A stretch of DNA of 64,000 nt from an uncultured Litoreibacter sp. (GTDB taxonomy: Bacteria > Pseudomonadota > Alphaproteobacteria > Rhodobacterales > Rhodobacteraceae). Under the pieces are notes generated by a model, which had not been told where the DNA came from, made no database searches, and was given only the letters and a program-made list of their open reading frames with translations. Where the stretch lies: positions 682,001 through 746,000 of the forward strand of contig CANLQL010000002.1 of the NCBI GenBank assembly GCA_947493265.1. Reading direction: 5' to 3'. A program made the translations under genes and the position numbers. Below are positions 5,771 to 55,483 of the stretch, piece after piece. Every line of letters begins with the position of its first letter. The stretch's first letter is position 1.

Positions 5771-6379
5771 CTATTTCAGAACTAGATCAGCGATGCGGCT
5801 TTGGTCGTGAACGATACGGGCATTTGCCAGATCGTTGCCTTCCGCCCGTGCCGTAGCCGCCGCCAGATCATGGCCATGATCCAGCCAGCGCGTGATGAGC
5901 CGCGCTCGAAGGGTTTCAATCGGAACATCTAGATGAATTGAATAGTCCCATTCCGCCTCCAACGCGTTCCATGGCGGGGTGTCCAACAGCAGATAGTTGC
6001 CTTCGACCAGGATCGTTTGATTTTCTGCGGTGACTTTGCCACCGTCCTCCACTGCCCGGTCCGCGCTGCGGTCGAATGTCGGGTAGGCGACTTCAGGTGT
6101 GGTGCGACACGCTTGGATGATATCGATGAACCCAGCGACGTCGAAGGTTTCCGGTGCGCCCTTCTTGGGAAGCAAGCCAAGCGGTTCCAAAACAGTGTTG
6201 TCCAGATGAAACCCGTCCATCGGCACAACGCAGGATTTGGCAATCTGACGGTTCAACATCTTGGCAAAGGTGGACTTGCCGCTGGCGGGCGCTCCGGCAA
6301 TTGCAATTATTCTGCGACCGTTTCTCAACGGCACCGCTTTGATTGCTGCTGCGACTTGTTGCAGGGTGGGGTCGCTCAA
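5771..6379 (-). CDS. frcK: Uridine kinase/phosphoribulokinase-like P-loop kinase, FrcK-like
   Basis: IAIAGAPASGKSTFAKML P-loop; overlaps the 3' end of the fructose-type ABC ATPase gene; order matches the rhizobial frcBCAK arrangement. Confidence 0.75.
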   Translation of the reverse strand: MSDPTLQQVAAAIKAVPLRNGRRIIAIAGAPASGKSTFAKMLNRQIAKSCVVPMDGFHLDNTVLEPLGLLPKKGAPETFDVAGFIDIIQACRTTPEVAYPTFDRSADRAVEDGGKVTAENQTILVEGNYLLLDTPPWNALEAEWDYSIHLDVPIETLRARLITRWLDHGHDLAAATARAEGNDLANARIVHDQSRIADLVLK

Positions 6380-50433: not shown

Positions 50434-51399
50434 TTAGCCCATCTGCGACGGACCAGCGGGATCATCTGTGGCCACGATGTGGTAAAGGCTCGCCTCACCA
50501 GACATTGCGGGAACAGCCGTGTGGCGTAGCCCCGCGGGCACCATTGCAGTGTCACCGGGGTTCAGGCTGGTTTCGCCCCCCTCCCAAACAAGTCGCCAAT
50601 GGCCTCGCATTGGCATCAGGACCGACGCGCGATCGTGGCTGTGCAGTTCCTCAGTGGCCGAACTTCTGGTCAGCAAGTCCACGTCAAAGCCGGGGCGGTC
50701 GCGGATGATGCCGTTTTCGCCGATCACCTTTACGGGCTTGTCCTTGGCCAGCGCCACCATATCCCAGTAGCGTCGCACACCCATGCCAACGACCTGCGCC
50801 GGCGTCATTTCCGGGTAAGTTTCCAGTTCAGCCTCGCTCAGCAGCGGCATTGGGGAAACACCTTCTGGAAGGGATTGGCCCTGCTTGGTGTCATAGAGCT
50901 TACCGTTCTCTCCCAGAACCAGCCCGTGATCTGTCGCATCCTCAATCACTTGCGGTGCCCAAGTGACACCGCCACCTGCATCATCGCCACCAAGTATGGC
51001 CATGATCATCCCGTAGTCGGTTCCAATGTTTTCAAACCCTCTGAAAATGCCTGTCGGAATATTGATGATATCACCTTCTTCCAACACGACCTCGCCCGCG
51101 GTGCCGTAGCGACCCCAGAAAAAGCGCCAGCGGCCTTTGAGGACAAAGAAAACCTCTGCAGTTGTGTGAGAATGCAGGGAGTTGCGGCATTTCGGTGGCT
51201 GGCCCGCCGCGCCAATATTGAACCCGATCGGTTCTGCAATATGGACATGCTGATCGGGGCTCTCGGAGACGCCACCGCCAATGATCGTAAAGTTCTCCTT
51301 TTGATCAGAACCCGGCGTATGTGCGTCGATAAACGCCGTTTTGCACGGTTGCAAATCGCCATAACGAACGATGTTTTCTGCCATTTTAGCGGGGGTCAT
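50434..51399 (-). CDS. Bicupin protein (two cupin domains)
   Basis: Two cupin-type motifs: NSLHSHTTAEVFFVLKGRWRFFWG...GEVVLEEGDIINIPTGIFRGFEN and EELHSHDRASVLMPMRGHWRLVWEGGETSLNPGDTAMVPAGLRHTA. Confidence 0.85.
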   Translation of the reverse strand: MTPAKMAENIVRYGDLQPCKTAFIDAHTPGSDQKENFTIIGGGVSESPDQHVHIAEPIGFNIGAAGQPPKCRNSLHSHTTAEVFFVLKGRWRFFWGRYGTAGEVVLEEGDIINIPTGIFRGFENIGTDYGMIMAILGGDDAGGGVTWAPQVIEDATDHGLVLGENGKLYDTKQGQSLPEGVSPMPLLSEAELETYPEMTPAQVVGMGVRRYWDMVALAKDKPVKVIGENGIIRDRPGFDVDLLTRSSATEELHSHDRASVLMPMRGHWRLVWEGGETSLNPGDTAMVPAGLRHTAVPAMSGEASLYHIVATDDPAGPSQMG

Positions 51400-52028
51400 T
51401 TCTGTTCCTTCCAGGTCGGGTCCACGGCTGTCAGCCGGGCTTCGAGCATAGTTATATGTTGGGTCATTTCGGCAAGCTTCGGGCCAAGAAGCGATTGCAT
51501 CTCGGTCTCGGTAAATCGGCGCTCGATGTATTTCGGGCAGTTCCAGTCGAAGCTGTGAACTTGCAAGGTCACAAGGCGTTCCGCCTCTGGCCCGCCCTCG
51601 ACATGCAGTTGGTGACGCAATTCCGGGTCGTCTGCGGCTGCCACGACTTTCGCCGTGGCCAGCATTTTCAGCCGCGCCCGGCGGGCGTAATCCATAAAAA
51701 ACAGTGAAACGCGGTCGTTTGTATCAAGGTTGCCTGCGCTGACGAACTGCTTGTTTCCAGCGTAATCTGCAAATCCCAGCGTCTTTGGTCCCAAGACCTT
51801 CATGAACTCAACCGGTCCGCCGCGATGTTGGATGTATGGCCAACCGCTTTCTGAAACCGTTGCGATATAGCAAGAAGACCGGCTTTCGATGAAGGCTTTT
51901 TCGTCGTTGCCCAAAGCGTCTGGGGCAGGGCGGTCGGTGACATGTTGGTACTTTTCGCGCGTACCGCTTGCGCTTTGGCGGTCCTGAACCGCTTGAGTGA
52001 AAAGGGTCTTGTAATATTGGTCTCTCAT
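51396..52028 (-). CDS. Pyridoxamine 5'-phosphate oxidase family FMN-binding protein
   Basis: ESRSSCYIATVSESGWPYIQHRGGPVEFMKVLGPKTLGFADYAGNKQFVSAGNLDTNDRVSLFFMDYARRARLKMLATAKV; ATGA overlaps on both sides. Confidence 0.87.
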   Translation of the reverse strand: MRDQYYKTLFTQAVQDRQSASGTREKYQHVTDRPAPDALGNDEKAFIESRSSCYIATVSESGWPYIQHRGGPVEFMKVLGPKTLGFADYAGNKQFVSAGNLDTNDRVSLFFMDYARRARLKMLATAKVVAAADDPELRHQLHVEGGPEAERLVTLQVHSFDWNCPKYIERRFTETEMQSLLGPKLAEMTQHITMLEARLTAVDPTWKEQK

Positions 52029-52999
52029 AGCGCGCCGCTGTGGATCAGTATCTGTTTCCAGATCGAGATCTCGTCGACCAGGGTGTATTCATGGCGAAGC
52101 CCCCAAGGACCAAACTCAGCATGGGTCATTCCCATAATGTAGACATCCGCACCTGTTGGCACGCCGTAGCTGCCATACCCATCATGTTTGCCGCTGAGCG
52201 ACCAGCGAACAGCTGCGCGCGGGCTCATCAACGGGTCTTCGCGCCCGATGACATGATCGATCTTGAAAGTGGCCGAGGGGAAGGAGGACCGGAACGGCAA
52301 CCAAAGCTGATCTGCCCCCGCCCAGCTGATGTCTGAGCGATCACCGGCATGGTGGACGTGGCAAGCACGGTCATATTCAGCCGGGATCACGGCAAAGTCC
52401 TTGTCCATGATCCGCGTCAGAATATCGGCCAGCTTCGCGCCCCATTCATTGTCGTTGCCGCGGGAATTATATCCCCCATCCACATCATCAGCGGCGGTGA
52501 AAGGTTTGATGCAAGCTTCTGGACCCCCTTCGCGCGCGATCAAATCCTGTGTGAAGCTTCGCGGCTCCATGCCCAGTTGGCGGACAATGCCACCGGTGTC
52601 GCGGATCAACCATTCATCATAGATGGCGTTGTCCTTGGCCGCACAATCCGCAATCGCCCGGATTTGAAACGATTTGCCTGTGGGCGGCCCAAAAAACCCG
52701 TGGCCTTTATGGGTGCCGGTGGTCAGCAAGCGGTGCGATGACAAAAACCCGGCCTCCGCATCGCCGGACCAGATCACATCTTCGCCCATCAATTGCCGGT
52801 CGGGAAATTCCGCCAAGGTGGCCATTGTGCCGTTGATTACTGCCTGGTTGCCCCGGACCAGTCCGGACGGGAACCGCATCGGCAAATCGGGGGCGTAATA
52901 ATCGTTCAACGTGGCCAGCCCGCGATCCTCCCAAATTTCCTTGGTGATCTTCAAAATATAGTCGGGCAGGTCCGCAAACTGGTTCGAAAAACCCTTCAT
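52025..52999 (-). CDS. Tandem SnoaL-like (polyketide cyclase/NTF2 fold) protein
   Basis: Two SnoaL-like halves: EIWEDRGLATLNDYYAPDLPMRFPSGLVRGNQAVINGTMATLAEFPD and DKDFAVIPAEYDRACHVHHAGDRSDISWAGADQLWLPFRSSFPSATFKIDHVIG; start trimmed from 53032. Confidence 0.8.
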   Translation of the reverse strand: MKGFSNQFADLPDYILKITKEIWEDRGLATLNDYYAPDLPMRFPSGLVRGNQAVINGTMATLAEFPDRQLMGEDVIWSGDAEAGFLSSHRLLTTGTHKGHGFFGPPTGKSFQIRAIADCAAKDNAIYDEWLIRDTGGIVRQLGMEPRSFTQDLIAREGGPEACIKPFTAADDVDGGYNSRGNDNEWGAKLADILTRIMDKDFAVIPAEYDRACHVHHAGDRSDISWAGADQLWLPFRSSFPSATFKIDHVIGREDPLMSPRAAVRWSLSGKHDGYGSYGVPTGADVYIMGMTHAEFGPWGLRHEYTLVDEISIWKQILIHSGAL

Positions 53000-53022
53000 C
53001 TCAATACTGTCCTTTTGGCATT

Positions 53023-54042
53023 CTATATCCATCCTTTTGGGATCCGGGCTGATTTCCGAACCATCAAAGGACCATCAATTTCGGTTTGAACCGGATGCGG
53101 GCTCTGTCCTGCAATTTGCGCAAGAAGTTGGGCCACCACAGCATCCACCATCCGGTTGGCAGGCTGACGCATTGTCGTCAGCTCAAAGCTCGGCCAGGAG
53201 GCCATGCCAACATCATCATATCCCACTATGGAGACATCGCCCGGAATGCTCAGCTCCAATTCGCGTTCGATCACTTCCATCACGGCAAAAGCCATATGAT
53301 CATTGCCGACAAAGATCGCATCGGGCGTCTGGCTATCGGCAAACAACCCGCGCACGGCAGCAGCGGCCGCATCGCGCGAAAACAATCCGTCGACAACGGC
53401 GAAAGGTGTCATGCCAGCATTGGCCAGCCCTGCGACAAATCCTGCCTGTCGGTCCCGCCCGGTTGAGGCGCCTTGCCAGCCGGAAATATGCGCAATACGG
53501 GAATGGCCGCCAGCAACCAGAAATTCTGCAACCTTCTGCCCACCGGCAAAATTCGTCGAGGTGACGCTGGACAGGCTGTTGTCACTATGACCGCGGTTAA
53601 ACAGGATCAGGGGCACGCCTTCTTCCGCCAAGCGTTCCGTCAGTTTCGACGACATGGAGACGGAGGCCAAGATGATCCCGTCCACTTGATGATCCAACAG
53701 ATCGTTGACAACTGCATCGACATCGGCAGCGTGGTTCGCGGCCATAAAAATCATGATGTTGTAGCCACGTTCTTTCAACGTACGGCTCAGCTTTTCAAGC
53801 GCTTCGGTGTAGAAAGGGTTGTCTAGGTAAGCCACGATCAGTCCGATCGTCATCGACTGGCCGGTTATCAAAGAGCGCGCCAACGTATTGGGCCGATACC
53901 CAAGTTCGCTCGCAGCCTGGCGCACACGTTTGTCGAGATCTTCTGACACTTTCACCCCCGGTGTGAAAACCCGGCTCACCGTCGGCTGACTGACGCCGGC
54001 GCGACGCGCTACGTCTTGTGATGTCGCTTTGGTAGTTGGCAT
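53023..54042 (-). CDS. LacI family transcriptional regulator
   Basis: TSQDVARRAGVSQPTVSRVFTPGVKVSEDLDKRVRQAASELGYRPNTLARSL; start trimmed from 54069. Confidence 0.93.
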   Translation of the reverse strand: MPTTKATSQDVARRAGVSQPTVSRVFTPGVKVSEDLDKRVRQAASELGYRPNTLARSLITGQSMTIGLIVAYLDNPFYTEALEKLSRTLKERGYNIMIFMAANHAADVDAVVNDLLDHQVDGIILASVSMSSKLTERLAEEGVPLILFNRGHSDNSLSSVTSTNFAGGQKVAEFLVAGGHSRIAHISGWQGASTGRDRQAGFVAGLANAGMTPFAVVDGLFSRDAAAAAVRGLFADSQTPDAIFVGNDHMAFAVMEVIERELELSIPGDVSIVGYDDVGMASWPSFELTTMRQPANRMVDAVVAQLLAQIAGQSPHPVQTEIDGPLMVRKSARIPKGWI

Positions 54043-54063: not shown

Positions 54064-54094
54064 GCCCAAAATACCTCCGCCGGAGGCGTTGGGC
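54064..54094. repeat. Nested inverted repeat/REP-like hairpin
   Basis: GCCCAA-AATA-CCTCC-GCC-GGAGG-CG-TTGGGC in the hisD-like/lacI intercistronic gap. Confidence 0.55.
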
Positions 54095-54104
54095 GTTTTG
54101 TTCT

Positions 54105-55433
54105 CTATTCCGCCGCATCCTTATAGGGGGCAGGGCCGCCATAGGGAACATTGACCCCGCCATATCGTCTGACGCGCAGATTGGCTTGCTCGGCATGGCC
54201 GACAAACCCTTCCAGCAGGCACAGCCGCGAACAATAGGCCCCGATATCTGCCGCGGCTTCATCCGTGGTGACTTTCTGGTAGCTGTGAGTTTTGAGGAAT
54301 TTTCCAACCCAAAGACCACCGGTATAGCGGCCTGCTTTCTTGGTCGGAAGCGTGTGATTGGTCCCGATTACCTTGTCGCCATTGGCCACATTCGTCCGCG
54401 GACCCAGGAACAACGCGCCATAGCAGGTCATCTTCTCCAGAAACCAATCGTCCCGGTCAGTCATCACCTGAACATGTTCAGACGCGACGTCGTCGGCCAC
54501 CTCCAGCATTTCGTCATAAGTGTCGCACAAGATCACCTCGCCGTAGTCTTCCCAGGAGGTCTTCGCCGTCTCGGCTGTCGGAAGAATGGTCAGGATGCGG
54601 TCAATCTCAGACAGGGTATCTTCCGCAAGCTTGCGGGAGTTTGTCAGCAGGACCGCGGGGGAGTTGTAGCCATGTTCCGCCTGTCCAAGAAGGTCAGTTG
54701 CACACATTTCGCCGTCGACAGTGTCGTCTGCAATCACCATCGTCTCAGTTGGACCCGCAAACAAATCGATCCCGACGCGCCCGAACAATTGCCGTTTTGC
54801 TTCGGCGACAAACGCATTGCCTGGCCCGACCAACATGTGCACGGGGTCAATCGTTTCGGTGCCAAGCGCCATTGCGCCGATCCCTTGGATCCCACCAAGG
54901 ACGTAAATCTCATGTGCGCCACCCAAATGCATTGCAGCGATCACCGCCGGATTTGGCTTGCCCTGAAACGGCGGGGTGCAGGCGATGATGCGCGGCACAC
55001 CCGCGACCGAGGCCGTGGCAACCGACATATGGGCGGAGGCAACCATCGGGAATTTCCCGGCAGGCACGTAGCAGCCGACGCTTTGAACGGGGATGTTTTT
55101 GTGGCCCAGAATAACACCGGGCATCGGTTCCACCTCGATATCCAACATCGAGTCGCGTTGGGCTTGTGCAAAGGCGCGGACCTGCGCTTGCGCAAAATTC
55201 AGGTCTTCCATGTCACGCGGACTAACCTGCGCCATCAAATCATCGATCTCGGCCTGGGACAGTTTGAAGGATGGGGGGCTGTATTTATCAAATTTCTCCG
55301 ACAATTCGCGCACCGCCGCGTCGCCGCGTTTTTCGATATCGGCGAGCGTATCTTCAACAACCTGACGCACCTTCGCGTCGTCTTCTGCGCGCTCGGTTTC
55401 CGGTTTGCCCCGTTTCAAGTAAGTAATTGCCAT
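54105..55433 (-). CDS. Histidinol dehydrogenase family protein, possibly sulfopropanediol 3-dehydrogenase (HpsN)-like
   Basis: HisD fold: [80 protein letters not shown]; no his biosynthesis neighbours; start trimmed from 55496. Confidence 0.85.
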
Positions 55434-55467
55434 GGAAAAACCTCCCTTTGTCACATGTTTATCAGCG

Positions 55468-55483
55468 TTGAATACGTATTCAA
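55468..55483. promoter_or_regulatory. LacI-family operator upstream of the hisD-like operon
   Basis: Perfect 16-bp palindrome TTGAATACGTATTCAA with central CG, 35 bp upstream of the hisD-like ATG. Confidence 0.78.

Follow-up and report, generated by a model that had tools for sequence, protein, structure and literature searches.

A predicted LacI operator at a hisD-like operon of Litoreibacter, with near-copies before an unlinked ABC transporter operon and a SnoaL-like gene

The palindrome TTGAATACGTATTCAA, at positions 55468-55483 of the window (the whole stretch of 64,000 nucleotides that was analysed, from an uncultured Litoreibacter sp.), is very probably the operator of the LacI-family protein encoded in the adjacent hisD-like operon (53023-54042). 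This protein is predicted to be a local repressor of its own operon and, at two unlinked places, of an ABC transporter operon and a SnoaL-like gene, which would be parts of an ancestral operon that was split. The sequence of the site, its conservation, the geometry of the promoter, the recurrence of the site at other promoters, and the correspondence between recognition helix and operator were all observed. The relevant features are the following.

55468-55483, no strand: predicted LacI operator TTGAATACGTATTCAA, a perfect palindrome by self-complementarity, kept in 11/11 Litoreibacter hisD promoters
55478-55483, minus strand: predicted -35 element TTGAAT, which is the left half of the operator, with a constant 16-bp spacing to the TA of the -10 element in 11/11 promoters
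55456-55464, minus strand: predicted extended -10 element TGATAAACA (TGn + TAAACA), with TGnTA at the same offset in 10/11 and TA in 11/11 aligned promoters
55441-55446, minus strand: ribosome-binding site GGGAGG of the hisD-like gene, from the sequence
54105-55433, minus strand: hisD-like dehydrogenase of 442 aa, encoded first in the operon (PF00815, E 2e-133)
53023-54042, minus strand: LacI-family regulator, 339 aa, recognition helix QPTVSRVF (PF00356 and Peripla_BP), predicted to bind the operator from the helix-operator match across loci
52025-53032, minus strand: SnoaL-like protein (PF07366), co-transcribed, overlapping lacI and adjoining it in nearly all loci
51396-52028, minus strand: PPOX-type flavoprotein (PF01243), co-transcribed
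50434-51399, minus strand: cupin-domain protein (PF07883), closing the operon; in three relatives its gene stands apart and has an operator of its own
C3:326034-330831, elsewhere in the genome: unlinked ABC transporter operon (solute-binding protein, two permeases, UgpC-type ATPase, SnoaL-like protein)

The site is self-complementary over all 16 bp, has CG at its centre and matches both strands, which agrees with its earlier description as a perfect palindrome of LacI type. The earlier note had placed it 35 bp upstream of the first gene, and the count here is 34 bp from its minus-strand 3' end to the ATG at 55433 that starts the hisD-like gene. According to the main text of one regulon survey, LacI-family operators are even palindromes of 16-22 bp with a central CG (PMC4052901), and TTGAATACGTATTCAA has this form exactly, at the length of 16 bp. 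It also carries G at NT-6, and the regulator helix QPTVSR supplies the corresponding Arg at AA-20. The 3.52-Mb genome holds a single exact copy. Palindromy over 16 bp is by itself not beyond chance, as two perfect palindromes of this length were observed in the window and 1.7 +/- 1.3 per 64 kb are expected under a first-order Markov model; the other one is GATCATGGCCATGATC at 5866-5881. The operator is judged real because it is conserved in 11/11 Litoreibacter hisD promoters and because further genes of this pathway carry it at their promoters.

By aligning the window with ten other Litoreibacter loci (L013-L022), a 14-bp core, TGAATACGTATTCA, was found with 0-1 mismatch in 11/11 hisD promoters, 34-55 bp ahead of the hisD start codon, and the flanks of the core diverge. 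These promoters have single operators. Most of them (L013-L021) carry an extra TGAATA/GAAT half-site, placed approximately 4-5 bp ahead of the operator; it is absent from the window, which reads GCAAAT there, and from L022. The earlier note was prepared to give up its proposal if the palindrome were not conserved before orthologous operons; the site is conserved before those that encode the regulator.

All five genes of the operon (hisD-like, lacI, SnoaL-like, PPOX flavoprotein, cupin) lie on the minus strand, and the last four overlap end to end. The regulator has the N-terminal helix-turn-helix domain PF00356 (54 bits) and the Peripla_BP_1/3 effector domain of a LacI-family transcription factor. 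Since lacI lies within the operon, its control by the hisD promoter is most likely, and the autoregulation of the cluster predicted earlier would follow from the same promoter. Between hisD and lacI there is a hairpin repeat, CCTCCGGCGGAGGTATTT, at 54069-54086, with 19 near-identical places in the genome vs. 0 for a reversed control pattern. This hairpin could modulate read-through from hisD to lacI and need not stop it.

The geometry of the hisD promoter was equally constant. TGnTA begins three bases past the palindrome in 10 of the 11 Litoreibacter promoters, and its TA is present in every one. The suggestion that TTGAAT doubles as a -35 element is borne out by this alignment, in which it stands exactly 16 bp from the extended -10 element (TGnTA). 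A generic sigma-70 scan did not report the hisD promoter, owing to the weak -10 element (TAAACA), and the promoter call rests on conservation. A longer ORF starting with GTG from 55496 was considered and is not a likely start; the ATG at 55433 is preceded by GGGAGG at 55446-55441. The operator overlies the -35 element and the spacer, a position from which a bound repressor would exclude RNA polymerase.

The genome-wide motif scan that had been proposed for finding the missing transporter was run. With the full 16-mer and up to 3 mismatches, second sites were only weak by mismatch count. The 14-bp core, chosen on the strength of the Litoreibacter alignment, gave six places in the window's genome at up to 2 mismatches vs. 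one for the reversed control pattern. The only place with 1 mismatch, TGAATGCGTATTCA at C3:330924-330937, is located 91 bp before the ABC transporter operon, so that the transporter was indeed found under a near-identical site, GTGAATACGCATTCAT. Compared with transporters that lie inside the hisD-lacI clusters read from other genera, its identity reaches 81% for the binding protein, 78% and 86% for the two permeases, and 80% for the ATPase. An orthologous transporter is present in 10/10 other Litoreibacter genomes and is preceded in each, at 71-93 bp, by a core site having 0-2 mismatches; in shuffled upstream regions such sites occur at a rate of 5.5e-4 per region. The transporter is of the sugar/glycerol-phosphate kind. 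The PDB relatives of its solute-binding protein are weak ones, among them general sugar binders and SmoF, which binds sulfoquinovosyl glycerol, and the substrate is therefore left unnamed.

A third site, AGAATACGAATTCA, was found 20 bp before the unlinked SnoaL-like gene (C3:553353-554381; L211:8353-9381). Orthologs of this gene in four other Litoreibacter genomes have sites with 1 mismatch at the same place, and the distance from the start codon is 9-20 bp. In three Litoreibacter genomes the cupin gene lies away from hisD and has its own site with 0-1 mismatch. A further core site with 1 mismatch, TGAATACATATTCA at L249:5371-5384, lacks the central CG; it was seen in a Litoreibacter genome at a place where no gene of the regulon was recognised close by. 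In most related genera, the transporter and SnoaL-like genes are joined to hisD and lacI in a single operon that has one operator or two. The simplest history, from these arrangements, would be that an ancestral single operon was split in Litoreibacter and that each piece kept or regained an operator.

The position of these sites bears on the sign of the regulation. The LacI protein may instead activate, or act both ways at different promoters, and the transporter sites would allow this, as they are 71-93 bp from the start codon and are followed by no recognisable fixed -10 element. Activation is nevertheless quite unlikely, because the hisD site covers the -35 element and spacer in 11/11 genomes, where a repressor would block, and the site of the SnoaL-like gene, 9-20 bp from its start codon, is likewise in a blocking position. 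With repression as the preferred reading, we infer binding, promoter occlusion, relief by an effector, and autoregulation through the shared promoter. A LacI dimer would sit on the palindrome with its recognition helices reading GAAT/ATTC and its hinge inserted at the central CG. Bound over the -35 hexamer and spacer, it would block RNA polymerase at the hisD promoter. Without inducer, the hisD-lacI-SnoaL-PPOX-cupin operon would be off and lacI self-repressed. The operator would be freed by an effector, which is probably the compound taken up or one of its early products. The same repressor would act through operator near-copies on the ABC transporter operon (C3:326034-330831) and the SnoaL-like gene (C3:553353-554381).

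Relatives of the LacI protein (E <= 1e-60) were found in 171/397 sampled genomes of the family, nearly all of different genera, and variants of the operator precede the orthologous operons elsewhere in Rhodobacteraceae and in Roseibium. In a permissive scan with the frame TTGnAnACGTnTnCAA over the clusters read, 208 sites lay upstream of lacI vs. 5 downstream. Their usual place is ahead of the gene that opens the cluster, often an ABC transporter gene. Many lineages have paired sites 54-55 bp apart, among them QSA-type loci such as L061 and L070, where the pair precedes the transporter. This spacing, approximately five helical turns, suggests cooperative binding or looping. No clear site was seen at L202 (helix QPTVGR) and at 24 QSA/RSA loci, for some of them because the sequence read stops short. 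Approximately 5.6 kb upstream of lacI in L153 there are two sites 22 bp apart, GAGAATACGTATTCAA and TTGAATACGTATTCTC.

The type of site follows the recognition helix of the linked LacI protein: QPT goes with TTGAATAC, QSA with TTGCATAC, and RSA with TTGCACAC. The QPT helix is accompanied by TTGAATAC in 14/16 best sites, and in a 15th locus, L153, TTGAATACGTATTCTC is present as well but scores below a spurious site. QSA sites read TTGCA(T/A)xC, and the RSA helix has TTGCACAC in 27/29 best sites. By comparing single positions, A at NT-5 on both sides was found in 14/16 QPT best sites vs. 0/116 for QSA/RSA, and C at NT-3 on both sides in 27/29 RSA best sites vs. 0/87 for QSA. These contrasts ignore kinship: QPT is one clade (support 99), so its correlation with A at NT-5 is one evolutionary change seen many times, and RSA represents about three changes on the tree. 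A control within one genome is provided by G001, which has two copies: the one with the QPT helix is accompanied by TTGAATACGTATTCTC, the one with QSA by TTGCATACGATTGCAA.

In the published code, AA-15 and AA-16 read NT-5 and NT-4, and Arg at AA-20 reads G at NT-6 (Camas 2010, PMC2978694). The regulators described here resemble that code in their TVSR-type helix, in the pairing of Arg AA-20 with the guanine at NT-6, and in the shift of NT-5 when AA-16 changes from P to S. They differ from it in that a change of AA-16 is accompanied by one of AA-17 (T to A), and in that the change of AA-15 from Q to R pairs with NT-3, outside the published pair. These comparisons suggest an extension of the LacI recognition code in which a change of AA-15 from Gln to Arg would go with NT-3 becoming C. 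Two of the scattered RSA cases (L165, L177) lack TTGCACAC, and we therefore offer the AA-15/NT-3 rule as a hypothesis. A change of the helix from QPT to QSA is predicted to switch the preference to TTGCATACGTATGCAA.

This correspondence also bears on which protein would bind. It could be supposed that another LacI-family protein of the genome occupies the operator and that the operon's own LacI acts elsewhere, since the genome has ten LacI-family genes. One genome, G118, has the exact TTGAATACGTATTCAA at L271:1722-1737 before a hisD-cupin pair, and the QPT helix was present in 0/13 LacI proteins detected in its assembly, which is 94% complete. We regard binding by another LacI-family protein as highly improbable, because the QPT helix occurs in 1/10 LacI-family proteins of the window's genome, the operon's own, and the other nine lack it, and because the site type changes with the linked LacI helix across genera. 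Moreover, the presence of the motif tracks that of the operon-type LacI: 26 of the 27 sampled genomes of the family with the exact degenerate motif have a lacI relative vs. 171/397 overall (Fisher p 1.6e-9). A second LacI protein of the window's genome, with the helix RSAVSR (G000:C2:482675-482812; L264), is predicted to read TTGCACACGTGTGCAA.

The operator also lies in the intergenic region between hisD and the divergent ccmF (55636 onward), 152 bp before the ccmF start codon, and it might control that gene; in the two relatives compared, ccmF is 79-80% identical and divergent from hisD. Control of ccmF is barely credible, however, as the promoter geometry points toward hisD and the site accompanies hisD-lacI or its transporter where hisD-lacI lies elsewhere. 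The chance that TTGAATACGTATTCAA is an accidental palindrome, or that RNA polymerase alone accounts for its conservation as a promoter element, is practically negligible. Some 1.7 perfect palindromes of 16 bp would be expected in 64 kb, and TTGAAT is -35-like, but both halves of the palindrome are conserved and not the -35 half alone, relatives of the site co-vary in other genera, and its recurrence in 11 genomes, at promoters of this pathway that are unlinked to hisD, already refutes the idea.

Regarding the enzyme, the best solved relatives of the HisD-like protein are the DHPS dehydrogenases, HpsN. HpsN is marked by G-R-Y-A/S-H with the sulfonate-binding His126, and histidinol dehydrogenase by G-S-A-P-L (PMC11382572). 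The protein of the window shares with HpsN, a sulfopropanediol 3-dehydrogenase (PDB 8v35; PMC11382572), the HisD fold, the catalytic Glu-His and the zinc ligands, the segments GQAEH, ASEH, GDK, and FVGH all being present. It differs in having GKFPM in place of GRY(A/S)H and in its transporter and neighbours, and P[AG]GK[FY]PM is found in 152/152 related loci. GKFPM likewise replaces G-S-A-P-L, though TIGR00069 scores above its cut-off. DHPS and histidinol were both rejected as substrates on these motifs. Judged by its motif, the protein of the window belongs with the 152 related ones to a third HisD-like type, neither HisD nor HpsN. Proteins with P[AG]GK[FY]PM are likely misnamed histidinol dehydrogenase, and annotation should be read with this in mind.

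As a local regulon of the LacI family, this one is of the ordinary kind. It shares with those in the main text of Ravcheev 2014 (PMC4052901) an even, CG-centred 16-bp palindrome, here 34 bp upstream, a linked and co-transcribed regulator, and, as predicted here, autoregulation. It differs in its pathway, as the combination of a GKFPM-type HisD-like enzyme, SnoaL-like proteins, cupin, and CUT1-like transporter is unmentioned in that main text. GapR, as presented there, is also a LacI-family regulator of Rhodobacteraceae, but a global one, with a 20-bp motif and a central-carbon regulon unlinked to it. The regulon is apparently undescribed in searchable papers, where searches by motif strings and gene combination returned no description of it; supplements and RegPrecise were outside the scope of these searches.

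We lean on balance toward an undescribed LacI regulon, present in about two fifths of the sampled genera of the family, that would control the uptake of a compound and its oxidation by a third-type HisD-like dehydrogenase, with the ancestral operon broken up in Litoreibacter into two to four units, each of which retained the operator or acquired it again. A guess about one site has become a testable regulon with a regulator, an operator, and three promoters, including that of the transporter missing from the operon. The helix-operator pairs form a natural series for testing LacI specificity, and the history of the regulon, with operon splitting and a change of specificity, is instructive. Furthermore, there is now a narrower field in which to look for the substrate of this widespread marine pathway, since the compound that is transported, or an early product, is likely to be the inducer.
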